From positions 290,479 to 354,478 of the forward strand of contig NZ_JALNMI010000002.1 of the NCBI RefSeq assembly GCF_023156585.1: a DNA stretch of 64,000 bases. The letters are read 5' to 3'. Each line of letters opens with the position of its first letter. Positions within the stretch are counted from its first letter, which is position 1. The stretch comes from Subsaxibacter sp. CAU 1640. GTDB taxonomy: Bacteria; Bacteroidota; Bacteroidia; Flavobacteriales; Flavobacteriaceae. The notes beneath the pieces are model-generated. The model did no database searches. It saw only the letters and a program-made list of their open reading frames with translations, and was not told the DNA's origin. This document shows, piece by piece, positions 2,466 to 35,367 of the stretch. The translations under genes were made by a program, and so were the position numbers.

Positions 2466-2724
2466 GAGATTTTGATTTAACCAATAATAATGTCGAATAA
2501 ACCACAAGTTGTAAAAAATCAGACAACTATTTTATCATTTTGAAGATAAGTTTTAACTTATTTGAGTATTTGATAGTCTCGTTCAGTCATTGTCATAAAT
2601 CTTTAATCCATAATGAACCTTTTAAGAAGGAATTTTAACTTTAAAGCAAAAAAAACTATCAATATTAAAAAAGAGTGTTTTTGGAATCCCATATATTTTA
2701 TAACTTAACAGAAATTCAACCAAA

Positions 2725-3804
2725 ATGCGTCTTAAGTCTTTCTTGATAGGATTTGGGGTTATTGCCATCTTACTGACCTTATTACCATTAATTCCATCAG
2801 ACTATTGGTGGATACGTATGTTTGATTTTCCTCATTTGCAACTGACCACACTTACTTTCCTTGCTATTTTGGTCTATTATATCAAATTTGATATTAAGCA
2901 ATATAAAGACTACCTGTTTATGTTTGCTCTGATTTTTTGTTTTCTGTATCAGTTTGGAAAAATAATGCCATACACGCCTGCATACGCCAAAGAAATGTAT
3001 GAAAGCAGTAATAATGATAAAGCGAATGATTTAAAGCTGTTTACAGCAAACGTACTACAAGATAATGAGGAACATCAGAAATTGGCGAAACAAATTGCGG
3101 ATAGAGACGCTGATATTTTGATATTGACCGAAACAGACCAAGTATGGCTCGATGCCATAAAAAAAGAGCTATCATCAGACTATCAATACCAAGTTGAAGT
3201 GCCCTTACCAAATACCTATGGCATGCTACTGTATTCCAAACTTCCTTTAATAAATCCATCGGTGCACTACCTAGTGGATGATAGCATTCCATCGATACAT
3301 ACCAAATTTAAAATGAAGAATGGGAAACTAGCACAATTATATGCCATTCACCCTACGCCACCTATGCCACAAGAAAATCCCAAATCAACCGATAGGGATG
3401 CCGAAATGATGATTATTGCAAAAATGGCAAAGGAGTCTAAACTTCCAGTCATCGTAGCGGGTGACTTTAACGATGTGGCCTGGTCGCCGACTTCTCTATT
3501 GTTTCAACGTGTGAGTGGTCTTCTGGATGTACGTGTAGGTCGTGGATTTTACTGCACCTTCAATGCCAAAAAAATGTTACTTCGCTGGCCTTTAGATCAA
3601 GTCTATGTGTCTCCCGAATTCAGATTACGCACCATGGAGAGTTGCGAGAGCATCGATTCCGATCATTTTCCCTTTTATGTAGAATTGAGCCACGAACCAG
3701 AAAAAGCAAAGGAGCAGCTATTAGATCCAACAACCAAAGATGAATGGGAACAAGCTAATAAACAAATTCAAAAGTTAAAACGTACCCAACGGTCAGACTC
3801 TTAA
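2725..3804 (+). CDS. Membrane-anchored endonuclease/exonuclease/phosphatase (EEP) family protein
   Basis: The 359-residue protein has three hydrophobic helices in the first 85 residues, then an EEP (DNase I-like) domain from about residue 103. Visible catalytic-type residues are Glu136 in LTETD, His209, Asp247 and Asn249 in GDFND, Asp291 in LDQVY, and the terminal Ser-Asp-His near 311-314. The fold cleaves phosphodiesters or phosphomonoesters in a metal-dependent way, and here the domain probably faces the periplasm. The substrate (nucleic acid, lipid or sugar phosphate) cannot be read from sequence. A charged tail of about 35 residues follows the domain. Confidence 0.85.
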   Translation: MRLKSFLIGFGVIAILLTLLPLIPSDYWWIRMFDFPHLQLTTLTFLAILVYYIKFDIKQYKDYLFMFALIFCFLYQFGKIMPYTPAYAKEMYESSNNDKANDLKLFTANVLQDNEEHQKLAKQIADRDADILILTETDQVWLDAIKKELSSDYQYQVEVPLPNTYGMLLYSKLPLINPSVHYLVDDSIPSIHTKFKMKNGKLAQLYAIHPTPPMPQENPKSTDRDAEMMIIAKMAKESKLPVIVAGDFNDVAWSPTSLLFQRVSGLLDVRVGRGFYCTFNAKKMLLRWPLDQVYVSPEFRLRTMESCESIDSDHFPFYVELSHEPEKAKEQLLDPTTKDEWEQANKQIQKLKRTQRSDS

Positions 3805-3911
3805 AAAATTGCCCATCCCATAATTATATTAAATCTTTTGAAAATGATGTAACACCGTTGGTGATTATCTGGGGTATCTTTATATCAATAATTTTAATAA
3901 CAATTAACGAT

Positions 3912-4214
3912 ATGAAAACACAACAAAAAAAAGGGCTTTTAGCCTTATTGGGACTTGGAGCGGGAGTTTTCGCTTGGTATAAATACAGAAACCTTTCTCC
4001 AGAAAAGAAAAACGAATTGAAAAACAGAGTTAACGAAGTTGGAACACAGCTTAAAGATTCTGTAAACAGTGTAGGCAATCAATTAAGGGATTCAGCCGGT
4101 TCTTTGACAAATGGCGCATCCAAATCTGCCAACAAAATATCCGACACTGCAAAACAAGAATTCAACGATGTTGCAAGCACAACAAAACGTGAGTACAACA
4201 AAGTTGTTAGTTAA
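3912..4214 (+). CDS. YtxH-like small membrane-anchored protein
   Basis: This 100-residue protein has a short basic N-terminus, a Gly/Leu/Ala-rich helix (residues 8-25) and then an amphipathic, charged helical region rich in Asn, Ser, Thr and Lys with repeating V-G-x-Q-L-[KR]-D-S units. The layout fits the YtxH/general-stress and late-embryogenesis-like families. An upstream in-frame ATG at 3858 would add 18 hydrophobic residues, but ATG at 3912 gives the canonical layout. A strong intrinsic terminator follows about 20 bases after the stop. Its role is unknown, and a stress or envelope function is only an inference. Confidence 0.7.
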   Translation: MKTQQKKGLLALLGLGAGVFAWYKYRNLSPEKKNELKNRVNEVGTQLKDSVNSVGNQLRDSAGSLTNGASKSANKISDTAKQEFNDVASTTKREYNKVVS

Positions 4215-4236
4215 TTTGTTATGAATTCCATTTGCT

Positions 4237-4263
4237 AAATCCTGCCTTGAGCAGGATTTTTTT
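4237..4263 (+). terminator. Intrinsic terminator after the YtxH-like gene
   Basis: A perfect 9-bp stem (aaatcctgc / gcaggattt) with a 5-base loop is followed by a run of T. It sits just after the stop at 4214 and ends that transcript before the acylase gene. Confidence 0.8.
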
Positions 4264-4348
4264 ATTTATATAATCAGCGCTCCCATAAGAAGTCAAACAA
4301 ATTAGAAAAAATTACCTAAATTTAAAGCTAACATCATCTCACAACCTT

Positions 4349-6436
4349 ATGAAACTCCGCTTACTCACTGTGCTCCTTTCCATCGGTTTCCTACAAACAG
4401 TCTTTTCGCAAAATAAAATTCCCGAAACACAAATTACTTGGGATACTTGGGGCGTGCCACATATCACTGCTGGTATTGATGAAGAACTATTCTTTGCACA
4501 AGGGTGGGCACAAATGCATAACCATGCGAACCTGATTTTGCAACTCTATGGCAGCTCTCGAGGTAAAGGTGCCGAATATTGGGGCAAAGATAAACTGGAG
4601 AATGACCTCATTATCCATACGCTTGGATTCGATAAACTTGCGGATGAATGGGCCACACAACAAGACCCTCAAACCAAAAAAATGCTGAACTCTTTTATCG
4701 ATGGATTGAACGCCTACGCAACGGCACATCCGGAAGCTATTGAAGAATCAAATAAAATAGTACTGCCACTGACCACCAAAGACCTCAACATGCATAGTAT
4801 GTATGTGGTGTTTACACGTTTTATAGGTGGTGAAGATTTGGGTCGTATCCAGCAATGGCCAGATATGGGCTCGAACACCTATGCCATTGCACCAAAGCGT
4901 TCGGCCTCTGGGAAGGCGATGTTGGTGCAGAATCCGCATTTACCTTGGTGGCAAGAGTTTTTGTTTTTTGAATCGCACCTCAATCTCAACGGTAAGAACA
5001 TGTATGGCGCCAACTTGGTAGGTTTTCCTGGGATTGCCATTGGTTTTAATGATGTTTTGGGATGGAGCCATACTGACAATAGCATTGACAATGCCGATAC
5101 TTATGAATTGGAGTTGAAAGATGGTGGTTATCTATTGGATGGCGTGCGTAAGGAATTCGAAAGCAGTAGCACGACCATTAAAATAAAGCAAGACGATGGT
5201 ACTTTTGTGGAACAGGAATTGCCGCTCCTCAAAACAGTTCATGGCCCTGTGGTCAGTCAAAAAGAGGGCAAAGTCTTGGCATTGCGCATGGTAGGTCTCG
5301 ACCGCCCAAATATGTTTATGCAATGGTGGCGCATGATCAATAGTCAGTCTTTTGATGAGTTTGAATCTGCCCTGAAGATGGCGCAAATCCCTTTTTGGAA
5401 TGTGATGTACGCCGATAAGGACGGCACCATTTTTTATCTGTTTAACGGCTTGGTGCCTAAACGCACCGAAGATACTTGGGAGTACTGGGACCGTATCATT
5501 ACTGGGGGGAAATCGGCTGATGTATGGACACAGGTACACGCCTATGACGATTTGCCGAAATTGAAAAACCCTGCCAATGGTTGGTTGCAAAACTCAAACG
5601 ATCCGCCATGGACCAGCACCATCCCTATGACTTTGAAACGACAAGACTACCCTGGTTATATGGCACCCTTTTATATGAGCTTTCGTTCACAACGCTCGGC
5701 GCGCATGCTGATGGAAGATGAGAGCATCACCTTTGATGAGTTGGTGGATTATAAACTTTCCACCCGATTGGAGTTTGCGGACCGTATTCTAGATGATTTG
5801 TTTGCTGCCGTAGATGCATCAGACAATCAAAAAGCCAAAGAAGCAAAGACAGTTCTAGAGCAATGGGACAAAGCATCGGACGCTGATAGTAAAGGCATGT
5901 TGCTGTTTTATAATTGGGCACGAAAATTCAACGTTTGGAAGTCTTCAAATTATTCCAAAGCTTGGGACAAATCTAGTCCCGAAAATACACCAGATGGTAT
6001 TGCCGACCCATCAAGAGCTGTCGAATTGCTAGCAGAAGCTGCCACAGATATTGAAACAAAATTTGGTAACCTTGCCACGCCTTGGGGTGACTACTATCGC
6101 ATTCAATACAACAACATTAACCTGCCAGGAAATGGTATCGATGGCAGTATGGGTGTCTTTCGAGTGGCGTGGCCCGGAGGTGCGGACGATACACATATGT
6201 ACATTGGTGGTGGTGACTCGTGGGTGGGTGTGATTGAGTTTGGCGACTCACCAAAAGCCAAAGTGCTCTTAAGCTATGGCAACGCTACCCAGAAAAACTC
6301 AAAACATAATGGTGACCAATTACAGCTCTTTTCAGATAAAACTTTGAGGGATGCCTGGCTCACTCAAGAGGCGATCAAGTCGCATACTGAAGCTATAGAA
6401 ACCAGAACCAAAAATGGTTTTATATTAAAACAATAG
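4349..6436 (+). CDS. Penicillin acylase family Ntn hydrolase
   Basis: The 695-residue protein has a signal peptide (cleaved near VFSQ) and the penicillin/cephalosporin acylase and AHL-acylase fold. Such enzymes mature by autocleavage that exposes an N-terminal Ser. Here the likely nucleophile is Ser175 in the GSN motif, preceded by an alpha-subunit of about 150 residues. A His-Thr-Asp-Asn segment (around residues 240-243) and an Asn-Ser-Asn-Asp-Pro segment (around 415) match conserved active-site parts of the family. It probably acts in the periplasm on an amide-linked acyl group. Beta-lactams, N-acyl-homoserine lactones or acylated peptides are all possible. The sulfurtransferase gene follows after 8 bases, so the two may be co-transcribed. 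Confidence 0.88.
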   Translation: MKLRLLTVLLSIGFLQTVFSQNKIPETQITWDTWGVPHITAGIDEELFFAQGWAQMHNHANLILQLYGSSRGKGAEYWGKDKLENDLIIHTLGFDKLADEWATQQDPQTKKMLNSFIDGLNAYATAHPEAIEESNKIVLPLTTKDLNMHSMYVVFTRFIGGEDLGRIQQWPDMGSNTYAIAPKRSASGKAMLVQNPHLPWWQEFLFFESHLNLNGKNMYGANLVGFPGIAIGFNDVLGWSHTDNSIDNADTYELELKDGGYLLDGVRKEFESSSTTIKIKQDDGTFVEQELPLLKTVHGPVVSQKEGKVLALRMVGLDRPNMFMQWWRMINSQSFDEFESALKMAQIPFWNVMYADKDGTIFYLFNGLVPKRTEDTWEYWDRIITGGKSADVWTQVHAYDDLPKLKNPANGWLQNSNDPPWTSTIPMTLKRQDYPGYMAPFYMSFRSQRSARMLMEDESITFDELVDYKLSTRLEFADRILDDLFAAVDASDNQKAKEAKTVLEQWDKASDADSKGMLLFYNWARKFNVWKSSNYSKAWDKSSPENTPDGIADPSRAVELLAEAATDIETKFGNLATPWGDYYRIQYNNINLPGNGIDGSMGVFRVAWPGGADDTHMYIGGGDSWVGVIEFGDSPKAKVLLSYGNATQKNSKHNGDQLQLFSDKTLRDAWLTQEAIKSHTEAIETRTKNGFILKQ

Positions 6437-26753: not shown

Positions 26754-27653
26754 TTAATAGGCCCACATATCTTGTTCAAAATCTCGAATTTTGTCCTTAA
26801 TTCTATCAGATTCCAATAATTGCATCAACGCATTATCTGCCACATAATCCTTAACTTCTCTATCACCATAAACGTTTTCTTCTTTATACATGTATCCATT
26901 AAAACGTCTAGAATTTAATAAATGGTCAAAAGATAACGGCATAGAACTGTTTTTGTTGTTGAATGCTTTTGCTTCATGAAGAACTTGTCTCACTTCTGGA
27001 TAAAAAACCCAGAACAATGCAATTGGTTCTTTATTAGCTTCATCTTCAGAATCAATGAAGTTAACATCTGGAGCTGCAGGTGCAAGACCAAGAATACGAT
27101 ATTTCAACTCACCTTGACGCTTGTCAAAATACCAAAGTCCTTTAATCAAATAAGCACTGATATCATAAGATTGGATATCTCTCTTTGTGATATATTCAGG
27201 ATCTACCTTACCTTCTGCATTATATTGCTGGTAACCAATATCCAATGTATCTACCTTATGTAAGGCTGATTCAATATCCTTTAAAGTACGTTTCGCCGTA
27301 AAATACGAATCATCATAGAGATTTTCTATAGTTCCGTCTTCAATGTTTTTTAACAAAACATCATAAAGAGAACGTCTATTTTTACCTATGTTGTTTGTAT
27401 CAACAGGAAAGTAAAGAGGAAAATTGACTCGCTCATCCAACACGACTTTTTCCCAAGTCATTTTTGAGAACAGGATATCCCTATCATCAACATAGCCATA
27501 CTCTAAAGGCTTATCGTTATCCATAGCCAATTGGGCTTCAGATTTCTTGCCAATCTCTTCAGGAGTTTTTGCATTTAGCAAATTCGTTTGAGCAAACGAA
27601 CCTGAAGCTACAATAACTCCTACAACGGTTAATAAAAAACTTCTTAAATTCAT
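26754..27653 (-). CDS. gldN: T9SS ring component GldN
   Basis: The 299-residue protein has a signal peptide (cleaved near SFAQ). The mature part carries the GldN features LLNAKTPEEIG near the N-terminus and a DRDILFSKMTWEKVVLDER segment. ATG at 27653 (MNLRSF) is the better start; the longer frame adds eight residues. In Flavobacterium and Porphyromonas (PorN), GldN joins GldK in the periplasmic ring of the type IX secretion and gliding machine. It is the last gene of gldKLMN and is followed by a strong terminator. Confidence 0.93.
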   Translation of the reverse strand: MNLRSFLLTVVGVIVASGSFAQTNLLNAKTPEEIGKKSEAQLAMDNDKPLEYGYVDDRDILFSKMTWEKVVLDERVNFPLYFPVDTNNIGKNRRSLYDVLLKNIEDGTIENLYDDSYFTAKRTLKDIESALHKVDTLDIGYQQYNAEGKVDPEYITKRDIQSYDISAYLIKGLWYFDKRQGELKYRILGLAPAAPDVNFIDSEDEANKEPIALFWVFYPEVRQVLHEAKAFNNKNSSMPLSFDHLLNSRRFNGYMYKEENVYGDREVKDYVADNALMQLLESDRIKDKIRDFEQDMWAY

Positions 27654-27725
27654 ATTTCTAGTTATTATTTGGGACACTTACTTTAACCTCATACTGGGCA
27701 AAAGCTTTACCTAAATTATAATTTA

Positions 27726-29273
27726 TTAGTTAGATATTTCAACAAATACTGGAGACACATTCGGTAATTTAACCGGATTGCCCACGATAGAAGCTTTAAT
27801 ATCGAAAATCTGAACACCATCACCTCTGGATGCTTTACGCAATGCATTTTTAGCTTGGTCATTCATCTTATTACCATTAACACTTACAGATGGTTGTCCA
27901 GGAACTTTTACTTTAAATGATGTTACAGTTAGATTTAAATCAAAATCAAAATCATTTAAAACAGCGCCTACAGTACCAATTTCTAAATTTTGTCTTGGTA
28001 AACTCACATTATCTTGTTGACCTGCAATAGTACCAGATGGTTTAGGAATATCCTTTATTCGAAATGTAGCCCTATCACTCACTTTAGATCCATCAGGAAG
28101 TGTTCCAGTCACATTGATCACTACTTCTCTACCTGTACCAGGTCTCATTTCATATTTACCAACACCACCAGCTTTAGACAAACCAGGAGCACTTGCAGAT
28201 ACATTATTATCAGACACACCGGCAAATGAAATAGTCATTGGGTTTACAACACCACGATATACCACATTCATCTTATCTGCAGAAATAGTTGCAGAGTTTG
28301 GTTTAGGAACTACAGCATAACTGCTTTTAACCGGTATACTAATAATTGAATCACCTTCTTTGAATTGGAATTCCCCAACAATTTCTCTTTCGCCTACAGC
28401 ACCTGCAGGGAATTTCAAGATTGTTTGACCTTGCTGCATTGCATCAGCTGGTAATTCCTTTCCATTAATTATAACTTTATTTGCTCTTAAGGTTTTGTCA
28501 TTTTTCCCAAGGATGATTCTTCCTGTAAATTCTTCTCCAGAAAAGAAAGCTGTCTTATCTGGTACGACAATTGCGTCAAAGTTTGTTAAAGAGGCCTCAA
28601 CTTTTAATTTTCCAGCCAGCATTGAAGACAGCACTTCTGATTCAGTAGTTTTCACATCGGCTTGCAATTGTGTCATTTTAGTAAGAGACGCAACCAATGG
28701 GAAACCCTTATAATGATAATCTAACCATTGTATTGTATTACCATCTCTATTCTTGACCGGCTCGGTACTAAATTTAGCTTGCACATCTTTCGCAATACTT
28801 GCCATATCTGGGTTAGTATTCAAAACAGCCACTACACCATCTCTAAATTTTGCTATCTGATCCATAAACTCTTGACCTTCTGGCTTAAGTTTATCACCAA
28901 TGAAGAAATGGTTATCAAGAAAGTCGCCTTTATCCATTACCTCATAATCTTTAGGATCTTCTAATTTGGCCGTCATTTGACTTTTCAAATTAGCAAGATA
29001 ACTATTGAAATCATTAGCTAAAACCGAAATTTGATCAGCTTGAGCCTTTAAGGGTTGGTATTTCGCAGGTTGCTCTTCAACTTTTTCGGCCAAACCAGCC
29101 ATAAAAGCTTCATTTCTAGCTGTTGCTGCTTCGTTCGATTCAGTCAACTTTTCGTTCATTAATCCAAATGCTGAAAGCACTTCTTTTGACATATTCAATG
29201 CTAGCATCGCAATGAAGATCAAATACATCAAGTTAATCATTTTCTGCCTTGCAGATAGTTTTCCACTTGCCAT
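27726..29273 (-). CDS. gldM: T9SS motor component GldM
   Basis: The 515-residue protein has one N-terminal membrane helix (about residues 15-33, MINLMYLIFIAMLALNMSKE) and a long periplasmic part. The periplasmic part is built of a helical bundle and then several immunoglobulin-like beta-domains, the GldM/PorM layout. GldM forms with GldL the proton-driven inner-membrane motor that powers secretion and gliding. It sits 72 bases upstream of gldN and 50 bases downstream of gldL. Confidence 0.96.
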   Translation of the reverse strand: MASGKLSARQKMINLMYLIFIAMLALNMSKEVLSAFGLMNEKLTESNEAATARNEAFMAGLAEKVEEQPAKYQPLKAQADQISVLANDFNSYLANLKSQMTAKLEDPKDYEVMDKGDFLDNHFFIGDKLKPEGQEFMDQIAKFRDGVVAVLNTNPDMASIAKDVQAKFSTEPVKNRDGNTIQWLDYHYKGFPLVASLTKMTQLQADVKTTESEVLSSMLAGKLKVEASLTNFDAIVVPDKTAFFSGEEFTGRIILGKNDKTLRANKVIINGKELPADAMQQGQTILKFPAGAVGEREIVGEFQFKEGDSIISIPVKSSYAVVPKPNSATISADKMNVVYRGVVNPMTISFAGVSDNNVSASAPGLSKAGGVGKYEMRPGTGREVVINVTGTLPDGSKVSDRATFRIKDIPKPSGTIAGQQDNVSLPRQNLEIGTVGAVLNDFDFDLNLTVTSFKVKVPGQPSVSVNGNKMNDQAKNALRKASRGDGVQIFDIKASIVGNPVKLPNVSPVFVEISN

Positions 29274-29323: not shown

Positions 29324-29971
29324 CTAATTATTTCTGTTCATTGCAGAAAGCATTCCACCGTAAACACCATTCAGTGATGACAGGTTAGAAGCTAATGATT
29401 GCATTTGTTCTTTTAATTTTTGAGCGTTTTCTACTGCTTCTTCGTTGATCGATGCTTGACGACTTGCAGCTTCCATCTGCACTTTGTAAAGACTGTTCAG
29501 AGATTCCATTTGAGCAGCAGCCAATGACATTTCTTCTCCATATTTCTTTGTAGCAGCTATTGAATCTACAGTTGGGCTGATACCTTTAGCAGCTCCTTCG
29601 AAATTCTTGATGCTGTTTCCTAAACTTGCCATCAATTCTCCATCTATTTTGGCCTCTTTCAACAATTCGTCCAATTTTTTAGATAAAAGACCTTCAGCAT
29701 CTTTAGGTTGCTCTTTCTTTTTGTCAGCGCTCTTGCCTCCAGCCAATTCAGGGTAAACCAATGACCAGTCTAAATCATCATCTACTGGTTCGAATGCAGA
29801 AATTGCAAAGATAATTGCTTCTGTGATTAGACCTATTGCCAACATTACGTTACCTGTCAAAGGTCCTATTTCGAAGTGAATGATTTTAAAAAGTGCACCT
29901 ATAATTACTACTGATGCTCCTAGTCCGTAAGCCATGTTCATAAACCTCTTACTTGCTCTTGATTGTGCCAT
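29324..29971 (-). CDS. gldL: T9SS motor component GldL
   Basis: The 215-residue protein has two N-terminal membrane helices (about 11-33 and 37-59) with a Glu in the second (LITEAIIFAISAFEP), then a cytoplasmic helical tail with heptad-like repeats. Family knowledge assigns this Glu to proton use in GldL. The rest of the tail is acidic and coiled-coil-like. The gene lies between gldK and gldM. Confidence 0.95.
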   Translation of the reverse strand: MAQSRASKRFMNMAYGLGASVVIIGALFKIIHFEIGPLTGNVMLAIGLITEAIIFAISAFEPVDDDLDWSLVYPELAGGKSADKKKEQPKDAEGLLSKKLDELLKEAKIDGELMASLGNSIKNFEGAAKGISPTVDSIAATKKYGEEMSLAAAQMESLNSLYKVQMEAASRQASINEEAVENAQKLKEQMQSLASNLSSLNGVYGGMLSAMNRNN

Positions 29972-30062: not shown

Positions 30063-31433
30063 TTAGTTTGTCCCGTTACCTGCATTTGCAGTTACATCTG
30101 TTCCCATGTAGTCTTGAACCGTTCTGAAACCAATGTAACTTCTTGCAGAATCAGCATATTCATAATCTCTTGAACTCACTTGCAAGAAATAAGCAACATC
30201 TTTCCAAGAACCTCCACGAACAACTTTGCGCTGGTTATCCGCATCATTCACATTAGGATTGATTGTTGACATATACTCATATGATCCTGGATCGTAAGAA
30301 CCATTTACCCATTCTGATACATTACCCGCCATGTTATAAAGATTAAAATCGTTTGGATCGTAAGATTTTGCTTCTACAGTATATAAAGCCTGGTCAGCAG
30401 CATAGTCACCACGCAATGGTTTAAAGTTTGCCATGAAACAACCTCTATCATTTTTAGCATATGGTCCACCCCAAGGATAAGTAGCACCTTGAAGACCACC
30501 TCTAGCTGCATACTCCCATTCCGCTTCAGATGGTAATCTAAATCTGTTTACAGGTTGTGCTCCTTTTTTCTTTTGATAAGCATTTTTCTTCAACGTTCTC
30601 CATTGACAGAATGCATTCGCTTGTTTCCAAGACACACCGACTACAGGATATTCTCCGTAAGCTGCATGCCAGAAATAATCATTGTGCATAGGCTCATTAT
30701 AAGAATAAGCAAAGTCCCTAATCCAAGCTGTGGTATCGGGATATACTTCCACTTCTTCTTGAACAATAAATTCAGAACGTTTTCTGTTTTTGTTTTTTGC
30801 AGCTTTGGCGATGTCCATATACGTATATTGGAATTTGAATTTTCTAACATCCCAAGTACGTTGGCCGTTATAAGATTCTTCCAATGGTAAATACATAGTA
30901 TCCATAACTTCCGCATAATATTCGTCTGGATAGTCTGAAGTGTCAAAAATCAAATCAACGTCATGATTTAACTTTCTCCCTTCATATCCAGTCGGTCCTA
31001 AACCACTATAATTATCATACATGTATTTTTCATAAACAGTCATGTTTTCAGGATCTGCATCTTTAAATGCAAATTCACCAATACCACCAGAACCAGGAGT
31101 TTGTCCTACTTCGTCTGCCAAAATAGCCAATTTAGTTCTTAATATTGAATCACGAACCCAATACACAAATTCTCGATACTCATTATTGGTAATTTCAGTC
31201 TCGTCCATGTAAAAGGCACTTACAGTAGCAGTTTTGGTTGGTGCATCTTGAACACCAGCGATGTCATCATCCGACTTACCCATGATAAAGGCCCCACCAG
31301 GAACCAATGTCATACCATAAGGTTTTTCCGGATGCCATTTCTTTCCTTTAACTCCAACTAGTTCTCCTCTGTCTCCAGATCCACAACTAGCCAATAGAGC
31401 TAAAACAGCGGTTAATAAAGCAAACTTCTTCAT
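30063..31433 (-). CDS. gldK: T9SS ring lipoprotein GldK
   Basis: The 456-residue protein has a lipobox (LLASCGSGDR) and a formylglycine-generating-enzyme-like sulfatase-modifying domain (VPGGAFIMGKSDDD, RLPSEAEWEYAARGG, YNMAGNVSEWVNG, KVVRGGSWKD). This is the known GldK/PorK composition. It is anchored to the outer membrane and builds the periplasmic ring with GldN. ATG 31433 is given, but 31439 (two residues longer) is equally possible. A putative promoter lies 60-90 bases upstream. Confidence 0.96.
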   Translation of the reverse strand: MKKFALLTAVLALLASCGSGDRGELVGVKGKKWHPEKPYGMTLVPGGAFIMGKSDDDIAGVQDAPTKTATVSAFYMDETEITNNEYREFVYWVRDSILRTKLAILADEVGQTPGSGGIGEFAFKDADPENMTVYEKYMYDNYSGLGPTGYEGRKLNHDVDLIFDTSDYPDEYYAEVMDTMYLPLEESYNGQRTWDVRKFKFQYTYMDIAKAAKNKNRKRSEFIVQEEVEVYPDTTAWIRDFAYSYNEPMHNDYFWHAAYGEYPVVGVSWKQANAFCQWRTLKKNAYQKKKGAQPVNRFRLPSEAEWEYAARGGLQGATYPWGGPYAKNDRGCFMANFKPLRGDYAADQALYTVEAKSYDPNDFNLYNMAGNVSEWVNGSYDPGSYEYMSTINPNVNDADNQRKVVRGGSWKDVAYFLQVSSRDYEYADSARSYIGFRTVQDYMGTDVTANAGNGTN

Positions 31434-31495
31434 ATTCATATAAACTCGAGGTTAAAATATTAGTTTTAAATTTGGTCTTAAAAAATTTGAGGTGG

Positions 31496-31612: not shown

Positions 31613-32779
31613 TTAAAAACTGTTCTTTTTATATGCTTTATACCATCTTTCTGGTATTTTACCGTGACTTGCTTCAACGTAATCCTCATACATGCATGGT
31701 AATAACGTATGTTTTTTTAATTTATTATTAACATTTGGTAAAAAAGGAATCTCAATCCACCAGCGGCCTGTTTTAACACTTTTATAGAAAATCAGCTCTT
31801 CATCTTCCACCAACACATTATATTTCTGATAGTTTGAATCAACTTTGAAATCATCATCCTTTATTCTACAATTTACGCCTTCGATGAAATACCAAACTAT
31901 TTGGGCAACGAGCATTGCCGTTACACTATCATCTTTAGATGCCCGATACTCGTAAACGCCAAATGACGATACTTTATTGCTAATACCAGCATACCTAGCA
32001 ATGGCACAAATTTCTTTTCCATCAAATCCATTAGGCGAATGCTTCTGTTTTGATGACACTTCAGAAGCTCTTACACATTTCAAATCCATACTCACTATAT
32101 GTGCATCTCGCATAACTGGTTCTACTAAATGTATGGATTTTGAGATTTCGCCTAAACGATATGCTTCAAAATAAAGCTTCTCCATCAAATCAATTTCTTC
32201 TTGCGAATTGAAATACGTTTGATAACCGATTGTAGAATAATTGAAAAGATTATATGGTTTCTCTAAAATGATCTTACCAAGGTAGCTGTTGTTCTTTATT
32301 TCTTGATTTGAATCTCCTAAATCAAAATTAGAATCGACATTCACAATGTTGACCATAGGAGCAAACGTATCATACGCTCTATAATTGGGATAAGTCAAAT
32401 CCTGGCTTCCACCTAATATTATAGGAATAATTTTCTTTTCCAGCAAAACGGACAAAGTAGTCCTTAATGCAAAATAGGTATCCTCGACCGTTTCGCCTTT
32501 GAGAATGTCACCCAAATCAGCAATCTGTGTATCCCAATTGCCTGGAAACAATCCATATAAGGAAACCCTTAATGTGTCAAAGCTAAAATCCTCTCCTATA
32601 TAATTGACGTCATTCCTGTTTTCTAAAACACCAAGAATTGCAATCTTTACACCATCTAAATCTGGAACACCCAATTGTTTGGAATGAATTCTTACTTTCC
32701 TTCCTAGTGCTTGTTCCGATAAGAGTTCGTTATGAGCCAAGACGGCATCAGAAACAGGCGAAAGAAAATTAAAGTTCAT
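31613..32779 (-). CDS. Arginase/formimidoylglutamase-fold protein lacking metal ligands
   Basis: The 388-residue protein has the arginase/agmatinase/formimidoylglutamase fold, but its metal-site motifs are altered. The motif GG[DG]H has become GGSQD (Gln126). The motif DAHxD has become DSNFD (Asp149, Asn151, Asp153). SxDxD has become SMDLK (Asp232, Lys234). Three of the six usual manganese ligands are therefore replaced, and hydrolase activity is doubtful. It lies 173 bases upstream of gldK and 70 bases downstream of topA, all on one strand. I recall the same order in other Flavobacteriaceae, which I could not check. Confidence 0.85.
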   Translation of the reverse strand: MNFNFLSPVSDAVLAHNELLSEQALGRKVRIHSKQLGVPDLDGVKIAILGVLENRNDVNYIGEDFSFDTLRVSLYGLFPGNWDTQIADLGDILKGETVEDTYFALRTTLSVLLEKKIIPIILGGSQDLTYPNYRAYDTFAPMVNIVNVDSNFDLGDSNQEIKNNSYLGKIILEKPYNLFNYSTIGYQTYFNSQEEIDLMEKLYFEAYRLGEISKSIHLVEPVMRDAHIVSMDLKCVRASEVSSKQKHSPNGFDGKEICAIARYAGISNKVSSFGVYEYRASKDDSVTAMLVAQIVWYFIEGVNCRIKDDDFKVDSNYQKYNVLVEDEELIFYKSVKTGRWWIEIPFLPNVNNKLKKHTLLPCMYEDYVEASHGKIPERWYKAYKKNSF

Positions 32780-32849: not shown

Positions 32850-35348
32850 CTATTTTTTTGAAGTTTTTTTCTTAGTAACTTTTCTAGTTGTTGATTTCTT
32901 TTTTGGTGTTTTGCTTGCGATGAGTTCCGCAGCATCTTTTAAAGTCATTTTTGAAACGTCGACAGATTTGTCCAATTCTATCTTCACCTTTCCTTTGGTA
33001 ACTGTGTGTCTTCCCCATCTTGCCTTTTCTACTTTGATACCTTCTTCTTCCCAATGATGAATCAACTTGTCTTTCTCCTTTTGGATTTTATCTTCAATCA
33101 ATTCTTCTATATCCTTATCAGATAAATTATCCCAGTCATATTTTTTGCTGACATTAATGAAAGTATTGTTCCATTTGATGAATGGACCAAAACGACCTTT
33201 ACCTTTTACAACTGGAAGATTTTTATACATATATATAGGAGCATCGGCTTTTTGCTTTTGTTTGATAAGCTCGATCGCTTCATCTAGGTCAACACTCATA
33301 GGGTCTGTGCCATTGGGCAATGATACAAATGAATCTCCGAACTTCACATAAGGTCCAAAACGACCGTTATTGACTTCGACTGATTGACCCTCATACTTTC
33401 CTAAATCTTTCGGTAGTTTGAACAAGTCTAAAGCTTCTTCGTAAGTAATGGAGTTCAACTGCTGTTCAGGCAACAAGCTTGCAAATTGAGGTTTTTCTTC
33501 TTCATCTGGAGTTCCAATTTGAACCATAGGACCAAATTTACCCAAACGCACCAAGACCGTCCTGCCTGTTTTTGGGTCGGTTCCTAAAATACGCTCTCCA
33601 GATTCACGCTCTGCATTTTCCTGTACATCTTCAACTTGAGGATGAAAATCCTTATAAAAGTTTTTCATCATCTTGGTCCAATCTTCTTTTCCTTCAGCAA
33701 TATTATCAAAATCCTCTTCCATTTTAGCCGTAAAATTATAATCTAAAATGGTCTCAAAATGATTCACCAAGAAATCGGTCACTATCATCCCAACATCTGT
33801 GGGAACAAGTTTCCCTTTATCAGAACCAACTTTTTCAGTTAATTCTTTTTCCTTTATAGTATTCGCCTTAAAAGTAAGTTTGGAATAATTACGCTCTGTG
33901 CCTTCAACATTACCCTTTTCAACATAATTACGATTTTGGATAGTTGAAATAGTTGGTGCATATGTGGATGGACGACCAATACCTAACTCTTCCAATTGCT
34001 TTACCAATGATGCTTCGGTATATCGATAAGGAGGACGCGTATAACGTTCCGTTGCAGCAATATAATTATTAAGGAGTGTTTCACTGGTTTTCATAGCAGG
34101 CAACATTCCTTCTTGTTCTGTATCTTCATCATCTGTGCCTTCCAAATACACTTTCAAGAATCCATCGAACGTAATCACTTCTCCATTAGCTGTAAATTGT
34201 TCTTTATGTGTCGAAGCACTAATCTTCACATTGGTTCGTTCCAATTCAGCCTCGCTCATTTGCGATGCAATGGCACGCTTCCAAATTAAATCATACAAAC
34301 GCGCTTGATCTCTATCGATGGTAACAGAATGTACTGAAAAATCTGTTGGTCGAATTGCCTCGTGAGCTTCCTGTGCTCCTTTTGATTTACCTTTATAATT
34401 ACGAGGTTTGCTATACTTTGAACCATAAGCTGCTTCAATTTCAGCTTTTGCTCCATTTCTGGCTTCATCCGATAAATTAACACTGTCTGTTCTCATATAA
34501 GTGATGAGACCAGCCTCATAGAGGCGTTGTGCCATCGTCATTGTTTTACTTACCGAGAAATATAATTTACGCGAAGCCTCTTGCTGCAACGTTGATGTTG
34601 TAAAAGGTGCAGCTGGTGATTTTTTCGCTGGCTTTTTTTCAAGTTCTGCAACTTTAAAGTTTGCATTTATATTAGATTCCAGAAACTTATAAGCATCCTC
34701 TTTTGAAGCGAATGACTTTCCTAATTTGGCCTTAAATGTCTGACCTGCTTCATTTGAAAATTCTGCATCAATTCTATAGGATGCTTCAGGTGTAAAATCC
34801 TGGATTTCGCGCTCTCTTTCCACAATCAATCTTACCGAAACTGATTGAACACGTCCTGCCGAGAGGCCTCCTTTGACCTTTTTCCATAAAACTGGTGACA
34901 ATTCGTAACCAACAATTCGGTCCAAAACCCGTCTGGCTTGCTGTGCATCTACCAAATGATAATCAATCGAGCGAGGGTTTGCTATCGCTTTTTGAATGGC
35001 GCTTTTGGTAATTTCGTGAAAAACGATACGTTTAGTTTTCGCTTTATCGAGCTTCAAGGTTTCTGCCAAGTGCCAAGCGATTGCCTCTCCTTCACGGTCC
35101 TCATCGCTCGCCAACCAAACAGTCTCTGCTTTGCTTGCCAAGTCTTTCAATTTCTTGACAACATCTTTTTTATCTTTGGAAACTTGATACTTGGGTTGAA
35201 AATCGCCTTCTACATCAACACCCAACTCCTTTGAAGGTAAGTCGGCAATATGCCCAAAACTGGACTCAACCTTAAACTCTTTACCAAGAAATTTCTCAAT
35301 GGTTTTTGCTTTTGCAGGTGACTCAACAATTACTAAATTCTTCGCCAT
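32850..35348 (-). CDS. topA: DNA topoisomerase I
   Basis: The 832-residue protein starts with the TOPRIM domain (LVIVESPAKAKTIEKFLG) and has the catalytic region with the active Tyr in LITYMRTDSVN. Toprim C-terminal repeats follow (FGRFGPFIKWN, FGPYVKFGD, FGPMVQIG). The tail is a Lys/Thr/Ser-rich basic stretch and not a zinc-finger set, which is common in Bacteroidota. It relaxes negative supercoils. The start is ATG 35346-35348; a TTG two codons upstream is unlikely. Confidence 0.97.
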   Translation of the reverse strand: MAKNLVIVESPAKAKTIEKFLGKEFKVESSFGHIADLPSKELGVDVEGDFQPKYQVSKDKKDVVKKLKDLASKAETVWLASDEDREGEAIAWHLAETLKLDKAKTKRIVFHEITKSAIQKAIANPRSIDYHLVDAQQARRVLDRIVGYELSPVLWKKVKGGLSAGRVQSVSVRLIVEREREIQDFTPEASYRIDAEFSNEAGQTFKAKLGKSFASKEDAYKFLESNINANFKVAELEKKPAKKSPAAPFTTSTLQQEASRKLYFSVSKTMTMAQRLYEAGLITYMRTDSVNLSDEARNGAKAEIEAAYGSKYSKPRNYKGKSKGAQEAHEAIRPTDFSVHSVTIDRDQARLYDLIWKRAIASQMSEAELERTNVKISASTHKEQFTANGEVITFDGFLKVYLEGTDDEDTEQEGMLPAMKTSETLLNNYIAATERYTRPPYRYTEASLVKQLEELGIGRPSTYAPTISTIQNRNYVEKGNVEGTERNYSKLTFKANTIKEKELTEKVGSDKGKLVPTDVGMIVTDFLVNHFETILDYNFTAKMEEDFDNIAEGKEDWTKMMKNFYKDFHPQVEDVQENAERESGERILGTDPKTGRTVLVRLGKFGPMVQIGTPDEEEKPQFASLLPEQQLNSITYEEALDLFKLPKDLGKYEGQSVEVNNGRFGPYVKFGDSFVSLPNGTDPMSVDLDEAIELIKQKQKADAPIYMYKNLPVVKGKGRFGPFIKWNNTFINVSKKYDWDNLSDKDIEELIEDKIQKEKDKLIHHWEEEGIKVEKARWGRHTVTKGKVKIELDKSVDVSKMTLKDAAELIASKTPKKKSTTRKVTKKKTSKK

Positions 35349-35367
35349 ATTCAATTTTTTATGCCTA

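Follow-up and report, generated by a model that had tools for sequence, protein, structure and literature searches.

A gene for a probable pseudo-ureohydrolase between topA and gldKLMN

The stretch of DNA that we analyzed, here called the window, comprises 64,000 nucleotides of Subsaxibacter sp. CAU 1640 (Bacteroidota; Bacteroidia; Flavobacteriales). At positions 31613 to 32779 on the minus strand, exactly as in the original prediction, it has an open reading frame for a protein of 388 amino acids, which we call ArgL as a working name and which we classify as a pseudo-ureohydrolase from the reading frame, the fold model, and the fold matches. All neighbors named here are also on the minus strand. 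Upstream lies a gene that we take from its sequence to be topA, encoding DNA topoisomerase I (32850 to 35354), which is matched across the loci compared. Downstream, the T9SS motor cluster starts with gldK (30063 to 31439), followed by gldL (29324 to 29971; TIGR03513, 233 bits, over the cutoff), gldM (27726 to 29273), and gldN (26754 to 27677), so that the predicted position between topA and gldKLMN is correct. In Bacteroidota, protein secretion and gliding are powered by the motor that gldKLMN encodes, whose cytoplasmic control is poorly understood. Copies of TANNTTTG, presumably the −7 promoter motif of Bacteroidota, occur upstream of the ArgL gene, and with 75 matches in the window versus 87 expected they carry no conclusion.

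The Pfam Arginase family matches ArgL residues 48 to 298 with 59.2 bits (cutoff of 22) and is the sole Pfam family found up to an E value of 1. Among the NCBIfam models, hutG (TIGR01227) scores highest, with 55.2 bits versus a cutoff of 229.15; this equivalog cutoff is also not reached by seven HutG-like relatives, which score 190 to 211 bits. AlphaFold2 gave a single compact model (pLDDT of 89.6, pTM of 0.91). Its residues 20 to 306 (31862 to 32722) align to formimidoylglutamase 2a0m with a Z score of 33.7 over 278 residues (2.3 Å, 17% identity), and rows 1 to 7 of the structural alignment span model residues 19/21 to 306/307. Because this part of the model aligns to formimidoylglutamases, the arginase fold of ArgL is predicted to be complete. 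The earlier description of the protein as otherwise full length holds for the fold and understates the protein, in which about 80 residues (307 to 388; 31616 to 31861) extend past the portion matching solved ureohydrolases. This C-terminal extension is absent from the seven HutG-like relatives.

The metal motifs read GGSQD (residues 123 to 127), VDSNFD (148 to 153), and SMDLK (230 to 234). Alignment bore out the predicted replacement of three of the six ligands in these motifs: Gln126 (codon at 32402 to 32404), Asn151 (32327 to 32329), and Lys234 (32078 to 32080) stand where His, His, and Asp are expected, while D149, D153, and D232 are retained. By arginase numbering, positions 151 and 234 are Mn(B) ligands and position 126 is an Mn(A) ligand. 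ArgL has the fold of the superfamily and lacks the six-ligand binuclear site of ureohydrolases.

Ligand loss across the ArgL family

We aligned the window ArgL with 109 relatives (the nearer set, 110 rows) and with 33 deeper members, giving a full set of 143 rows. Residue 126 in the nearer set is Gln in 106 rows, His in 2, and Asn in 2; His never occurs at residue 151 and Asp never at residue 234. D149 and D232 are kept in all 110 of these rows and D153 in 109. Not one of the 143 rows has all six ligands, and a homologue with intact ligands in the same place, which the original prediction had named as the case that would speak against it, is not among them. No row has a complete Mn(B) set, and 15 have a complete Mn(A) set. 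His151 occurs in a single row (L158) and Asp234 in seven, with other ligands missing there. Position 277, which we take to correspond to the arginase substrate Glu, is Glu in 108 of the 143 rows.

Outside the family we compared nine relatives, including two encoded by the window genome; all nine have a complete Mn(B) set, and seven have all six ligands. In a tree of 59 rows, calculated with the ligand columns blanked and the C-terminal tail removed, these nine are separated from the family by a single branch supported at 96/93, and Mn(B) completeness requires one change; the tree has several long branches, and its inner placings are unsure. Ligand loss is a trait of the ArgL family, and the loss of Mn(B) has a single origin on this tree.

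Degenerate rows occur in families f5, f19, and f13. The f5 rows read N, S, I, S, N, and D at the six ligand places and lack D149, D153, and D232; the f19 and f13 rows lack most of these aspartates, and in the six degenerate rows outside f5, between one and three of the six ligand places still have the expected letter. The alignment strongly supports a loss of ureohydrolase chemistry in the ArgL family. Binuclear ureohydrolase activity would not be expected in any aligned member, in agreement with the original view that formimidoylglutamase or arginase activity is improbable.

Conserved residues and the C-terminal domain

The residues conserved in 90% or more of 42 representatives of the main clade were compared with those of the seven HutG-like relatives and of 11 degenerate rows, made up of five rows each from f5 and f19 together with L181 (f13). 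The family-specific residues persist even in rows without most ligands. Trp296 (codon at 31892 to 31894) and W340 are found in 143 of 143 rows; E220, P221, and R224, which form an EPxxR motif (32108 to 32122), and F331 are each found in 142; C362 is found in 141 and W341 in 137. Position 367 is Tyr in 139 rows and Phe in 4. Q187, which is common to the HutG-like relatives, is kept in all 11 degenerate rows. Because the family-specific residues persist where most of the aspartate ligands have been lost, the simplest reading is that the constraint has moved away from the old active site, which would no longer be the working site of ArgL. The gene is not decaying and is under purifying selection, since pairwise comparison of five close genomes gives it a dN/dS of 0.02 to 0.06, like that of topA and gldK (dS is saturated).

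At least 65 of the 82 tail positions are filled in every one of the 143 rows, and 0 or 1 in the seven HutG-like relatives. A profile of residues 303 to 388 matches 93 of 99 genomes of the class, at a single place in each (E value of 0.001 or better). The matches lie mostly in open frames of ArgL size; three are in short frames, of 108 amino acids in G393, 252 in G405, and 61 in G425, the last at a contig end. At contig C1 near position 921217, the tail of G393 lies in the 108-amino-acid frame; this genome has three ArgL matches, and its ArgL may be broken there or misread. Among the six class genomes without a tail match, G005 carries a divergent ArgL of the f5 type, and G280, G288, G358, G364, and G388 have neither a tail match nor an ArgL match. 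Modeled by itself, the C-terminal domain reached a pLDDT of 80.5. Foldseek against the PDB gave nothing convincing for it (best E value of 1.2), a second structural comparison gave a best Z score of 3.4 and no row with a Z score of 5 or more, and the tail profile matched PDB sequences with a best E value of 0.11. The C-terminal domain is left without a recognizable relative in the PDB, which does not imply a new fold.

Gene neighborhood

In loci L003 to L033 and L034 to L113, topA precedes and gldK follows the ArgL gene, except that L103 ends short of gldK. Deeper members (L160, L177 to L180, and L182) have an extra gene between ArgL and gldK, which encodes a PorP/SprF protein in the scanned loci L160 and L180; the order in L160 is topA-ArgL-PorP-gldK-L-M-N, with an overlap of four bases between topA and ArgL. 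Among the 109 genomes of the class that were listed for ArgL as well as for GldL, the starts of the two genes are within 8 kb in 75 genomes (22 of 30 families), farther apart in 7, and on different contigs in 27, where contig breaks may account for some cases. MiaB, Uup, and an FAD oxidoreductase are likewise retained as neighbors of ArgL in most of L034 to L113, and we know of no T9SS role for these three.

ArgL is encoded inside the T9SS cluster of the window and of many relatives, and outside it in the f5, f17, f18, f22, and f23 loci. All five f5 loci retain topA near ArgL and have no gldK nearby; the fetched f17, f18, f22, and f23 loci have neither topA nor gldK within 6 kb. Three of the five f19 loci have ArgL away from topA and near gldJ. 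L156 has the order porU-PorP-GldJ-MurF-ArgL, and GldJ is also near ArgL in L157 and L168; porU and porP were scanned in one of the three. A BLAST match to GldK beside ArgL in these loci turned out to be GldJ, as identified by curated models (L156 and L168) and, for L156 and L157, by a GldJ search of their genomes (G117 and G209). In the remaining two f19 loci (L155 and L158), no T9SS gene was found near ArgL with the queries used.

Some further features of these loci were recorded. On the side of ArgL opposite murF and gldJ, f19 loci encode an OmpA-domain protein of about 615 amino acids (L156, 7019 to 8866; L168, 3658 to 5499), whose similarity to PorE is far under the model cutoff; L157 has a similar open reading frame, judged by position. 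The f5 locus L144 encodes a 1,048-amino-acid protein with a T9SS sorting tail between topA and ArgL (2684 to 5827). In Mangrovimonas sp. TPBH4 (NZ_LBIO01000037.1; L040 and L041), the whole 17-kb region occurs twice, near both contig ends and with equal identities, suggesting an assembly artifact or a recent duplication. Across L034 to L113, GldM identity to the window splits into two groups, about 47 to 53% in Psychroserpens, Winogradskyella, and some others and about 60 to 90% elsewhere, while TopA and MiaB are 77 to 94% identical; a replacement of gldM, together with gldL, may have taken place in one lineage.

Co-occurrence with GldL

The co-occurrence with gldKLMN that the original prediction proposed to check was followed through GldL. 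Among 247 genomes of the class, ArgL matches were found in 232 and GldL in 235 (233 over the cutoff); 227 genomes have both, 8 have GldL only, 5 have ArgL only, and 7 have neither, so that 13 are discordant (Fisher's P = 4 × 10⁻⁷, not corrected for kinship). Four of the genomes with ArgL only are 70 to 86% complete, and in the fifth (G394) ArgL lies 474 bases from a contig end. The weak ArgL matches of G396 and G427 (E values of about 10⁻¹² to 10⁻¹³), both of which also match the tail weakly, may be other ureohydrolases. In a sample of 296 genomes of the phylum, GldL is over the cutoff in 71, and 69 of these have an ArgL match that reaches at least position 376 of the 385 of the profile. In this sample, 78 genomes outside the class have a match; among those listed with a place it ends at or before position 323, and the weakest of them lack listed positions. 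Of the 225 phylum genomes without GldL over the cutoff only two belong to the class, which confounds this comparison by descent.

The order sample of 60 genomes has an ArgL-type match in 46 and GldL in 50. The match in G013 is an active-like relative only (L183), and G020 (86% complete) and G025 (83% complete) have ArgL without GldL. No ArgL was found in six GldL-positive genomes of this sample, G009, G010, G012, G023, G035, and G046 (79% complete). In G010, topA is followed directly by gldK, and in G012, topA and gldK are separated by one open reading frame, PorP-like by eye; the absences of ArgL from its own slot in these two genomes are real. ArgL is not present wherever the T9SS motor is, given the 8 of 235 GldL-positive class genomes without an ArgL match. 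It also does not simply follow GldJ, as gliding instead of secretion might have required, since among 50 chosen genomes GldJ is over the cutoff in five that lack ArgL (G009, G010, G012, G023, and G035).

Rates of evolution over 73 rows gave partial correlations of ArgL with GldK of 0.58, GldL of 0.43, GldM of 0.47, and GldN of 0.63 (Mantel P = 0.001 throughout). The FAD oxidoreductase, a neighbor outside T9SS, equals these values (0.51, also with P = 0.001), which makes the signal unspecific and discounts coevolution with a particular Gld protein; the correlation between GldL and GldM is 0.82. None of the NCBIfam T9SS models and none of the PADLOC defense models matched ArgL. The proposed tie to secretion or gliding is supported by the gene neighborhood and the GldL co-occurrence and weakened by the T9SS-positive lineages without ArgL, the distance from gldK in f5, and the unspecific rate covariation.

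Possible role of ArgL

The best single reading, to which we give about an even chance, is that ArgL is a pseudo-ureohydrolase acting as a noncatalytic adaptor of T9SS or gliding. An ancestral HutG-like enzyme in Bacteroidia would have lost its second metal site once and gained the C-terminal domain, and the gene would have become fixed in the topA-porP-gldKLMN cluster. The protein would no longer hydrolyze guanidino or formimino groups. ArgL is probably cytosolic, with no signal peptide seen by eye, and its conserved residues may form one surface, consisting of the C-terminal domain, the helix at residues 216 to 224 with EPxxR, and the W296 helix, that would bind a protein partner. The neighborhood and the co-occurrence with GldL suggest a T9SS role, in which the likeliest partner would be a cytoplasm-facing part of the secretion and gliding machinery, the cytoplasmic part of GldL being the obvious candidate. 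By binding there, ArgL would have a regulatory or assembly role and would assemble or tune the machinery and not power it. A stronger version, in which ArgL is an unrecognized class-wide part of T9SS and gliding that docks at GldLM from the cytoplasmic side and controls assembly or activity, is possible at a distinctly lower probability.

A residual chemistry has to be weighed against the adaptor. On the Mn(A) side, H/Q126, D149, D153, and D232 might hold one ion and support another guanidino or amide reaction, as the near-invariance of the three aspartates in the nearer rows, the 15 complete Mn(A) sets, and the frequency of E277 would allow. A solved formiminoglutamase with Mn also has Asn, and its variant N114H has His, according to the entry names (4mxr and 4myn), at what we take to be the first ligand place. 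We nevertheless consider such a metal enzyme unlikely, given that Mn(B) is complete nowhere, that the window protein has Lys at 234, and that the tail and EPxxR stay in nearly all of the f5, f19, and f13 rows that have lost all or most of the three aspartates. The loss of pocket residues in f5, and mostly in f19, speaks against a dead site that senses a metabolite, binding an arginine- or polyamine-like ligand and signaling through the C-terminal domain to T9SS or another partner. The acidic cluster retained in the main clade would suit such a ligand, and Lys or Arg at 151 or 234 is found in 25 of the 42 representatives keeping D149 and D232. As a metal-replacing cation this residue looked good by eye and failed the shuffle test: the pattern of exactly one cation is not above shuffles (4,116 of 5,000 were as high), and the link between Q126 and the cation, with P = 0.001 uncorrected, gave a median P of 0.63 in independent pairs, which are too few to reach 0.05. 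We rate a sensor as improbable, to the same degree as the metal enzyme.

Equally doubtful is an explanation by chromosome order, in which ArgL would be a topA partner or a housekeeping protein that merely happens to stand beside the gld genes. It accounts for the five of five f5 loci that keep topA and lack a nearby gldK, and for the conservation of MiaB, Uup, and the FAD oxidoreductase in the same neighborhood. It is weakened by the three f19 loci near gldJ and away from topA, and by the 12 class genomes without GldL, seven of which also lack ArgL while the other five are incomplete or have ArgL at a contig end. By far the least probable reading is that ArgL is an ordinary formimidoylglutamase or arginase whose ligands are unusual: hutG is the best curated family, and against this stand the score of 55 bits versus a cutoff of 229, the absence of a complete Mn(B) set from all 143 rows, and the presence in the same genome of two further ureohydrolases that retain all six ligands and of which one is over the agmatinase cutoff.

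Comparison with known systems

No paper describing the ArgL family was found in the literature searched for gld or T9SS together with arginase-type proteins. ArgL is a conserved extra gene in the gldKLMN cluster that receives no more than a weak hutG score from curated models, and it should not be scored as a lone formimidoylglutamase. One report (PMC11278836) describes no detected histidine degradation apart from formiminoglutamase, and this lone formiminoglutamase would fit the pattern of ArgL misannotation.

The window genome itself has two further PF00491 proteins (L001 and L002), each with all six ligands; one is over the agmatinase cutoff, and the other (L002) is nearest to hutG, under the cutoff. 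Since hutH and hutU are over their cutoffs, the genome likely has a histidine pathway, and L002, as the hutG-like paralog, would be a better candidate than ArgL for the last step of that pathway. HutG (TIGR01227; PDB 3m1r, 2a0m, and 4mxr) is the best curated family by score and shares the fold of ArgL residues 20 to 306 with Z scores of 31.7 to 33.7. In contrast to HutG, ArgL is far under the family cutoff, has lost Mn(B) ligands, and has an extra C-terminal domain and T9SS neighbors. Compared with the T9SS cluster porP-gldK-L-M-N, ArgL lies inside a conserved cluster, between topA and porP or gldK, but unlike the genes of that cluster it matches no NCBIfam T9SS model and is missing from some T9SS-positive lineages.

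The top Foldseek matches of ArgL are to the metformin hydrolase MfmAB (PDB 8snf, 8ryi, and 8x3g). MfmAB is reported to consist of two ureohydrolase-family proteins that need coexpression and form an uneven heteromer, which is an active Ni-dependent enzyme (PMC11647477) and in this would differ from ArgL. In the window genome, L001 and L002 are possible ureohydrolase partners with which ArgL might form a heteromer in the manner of MfmB.
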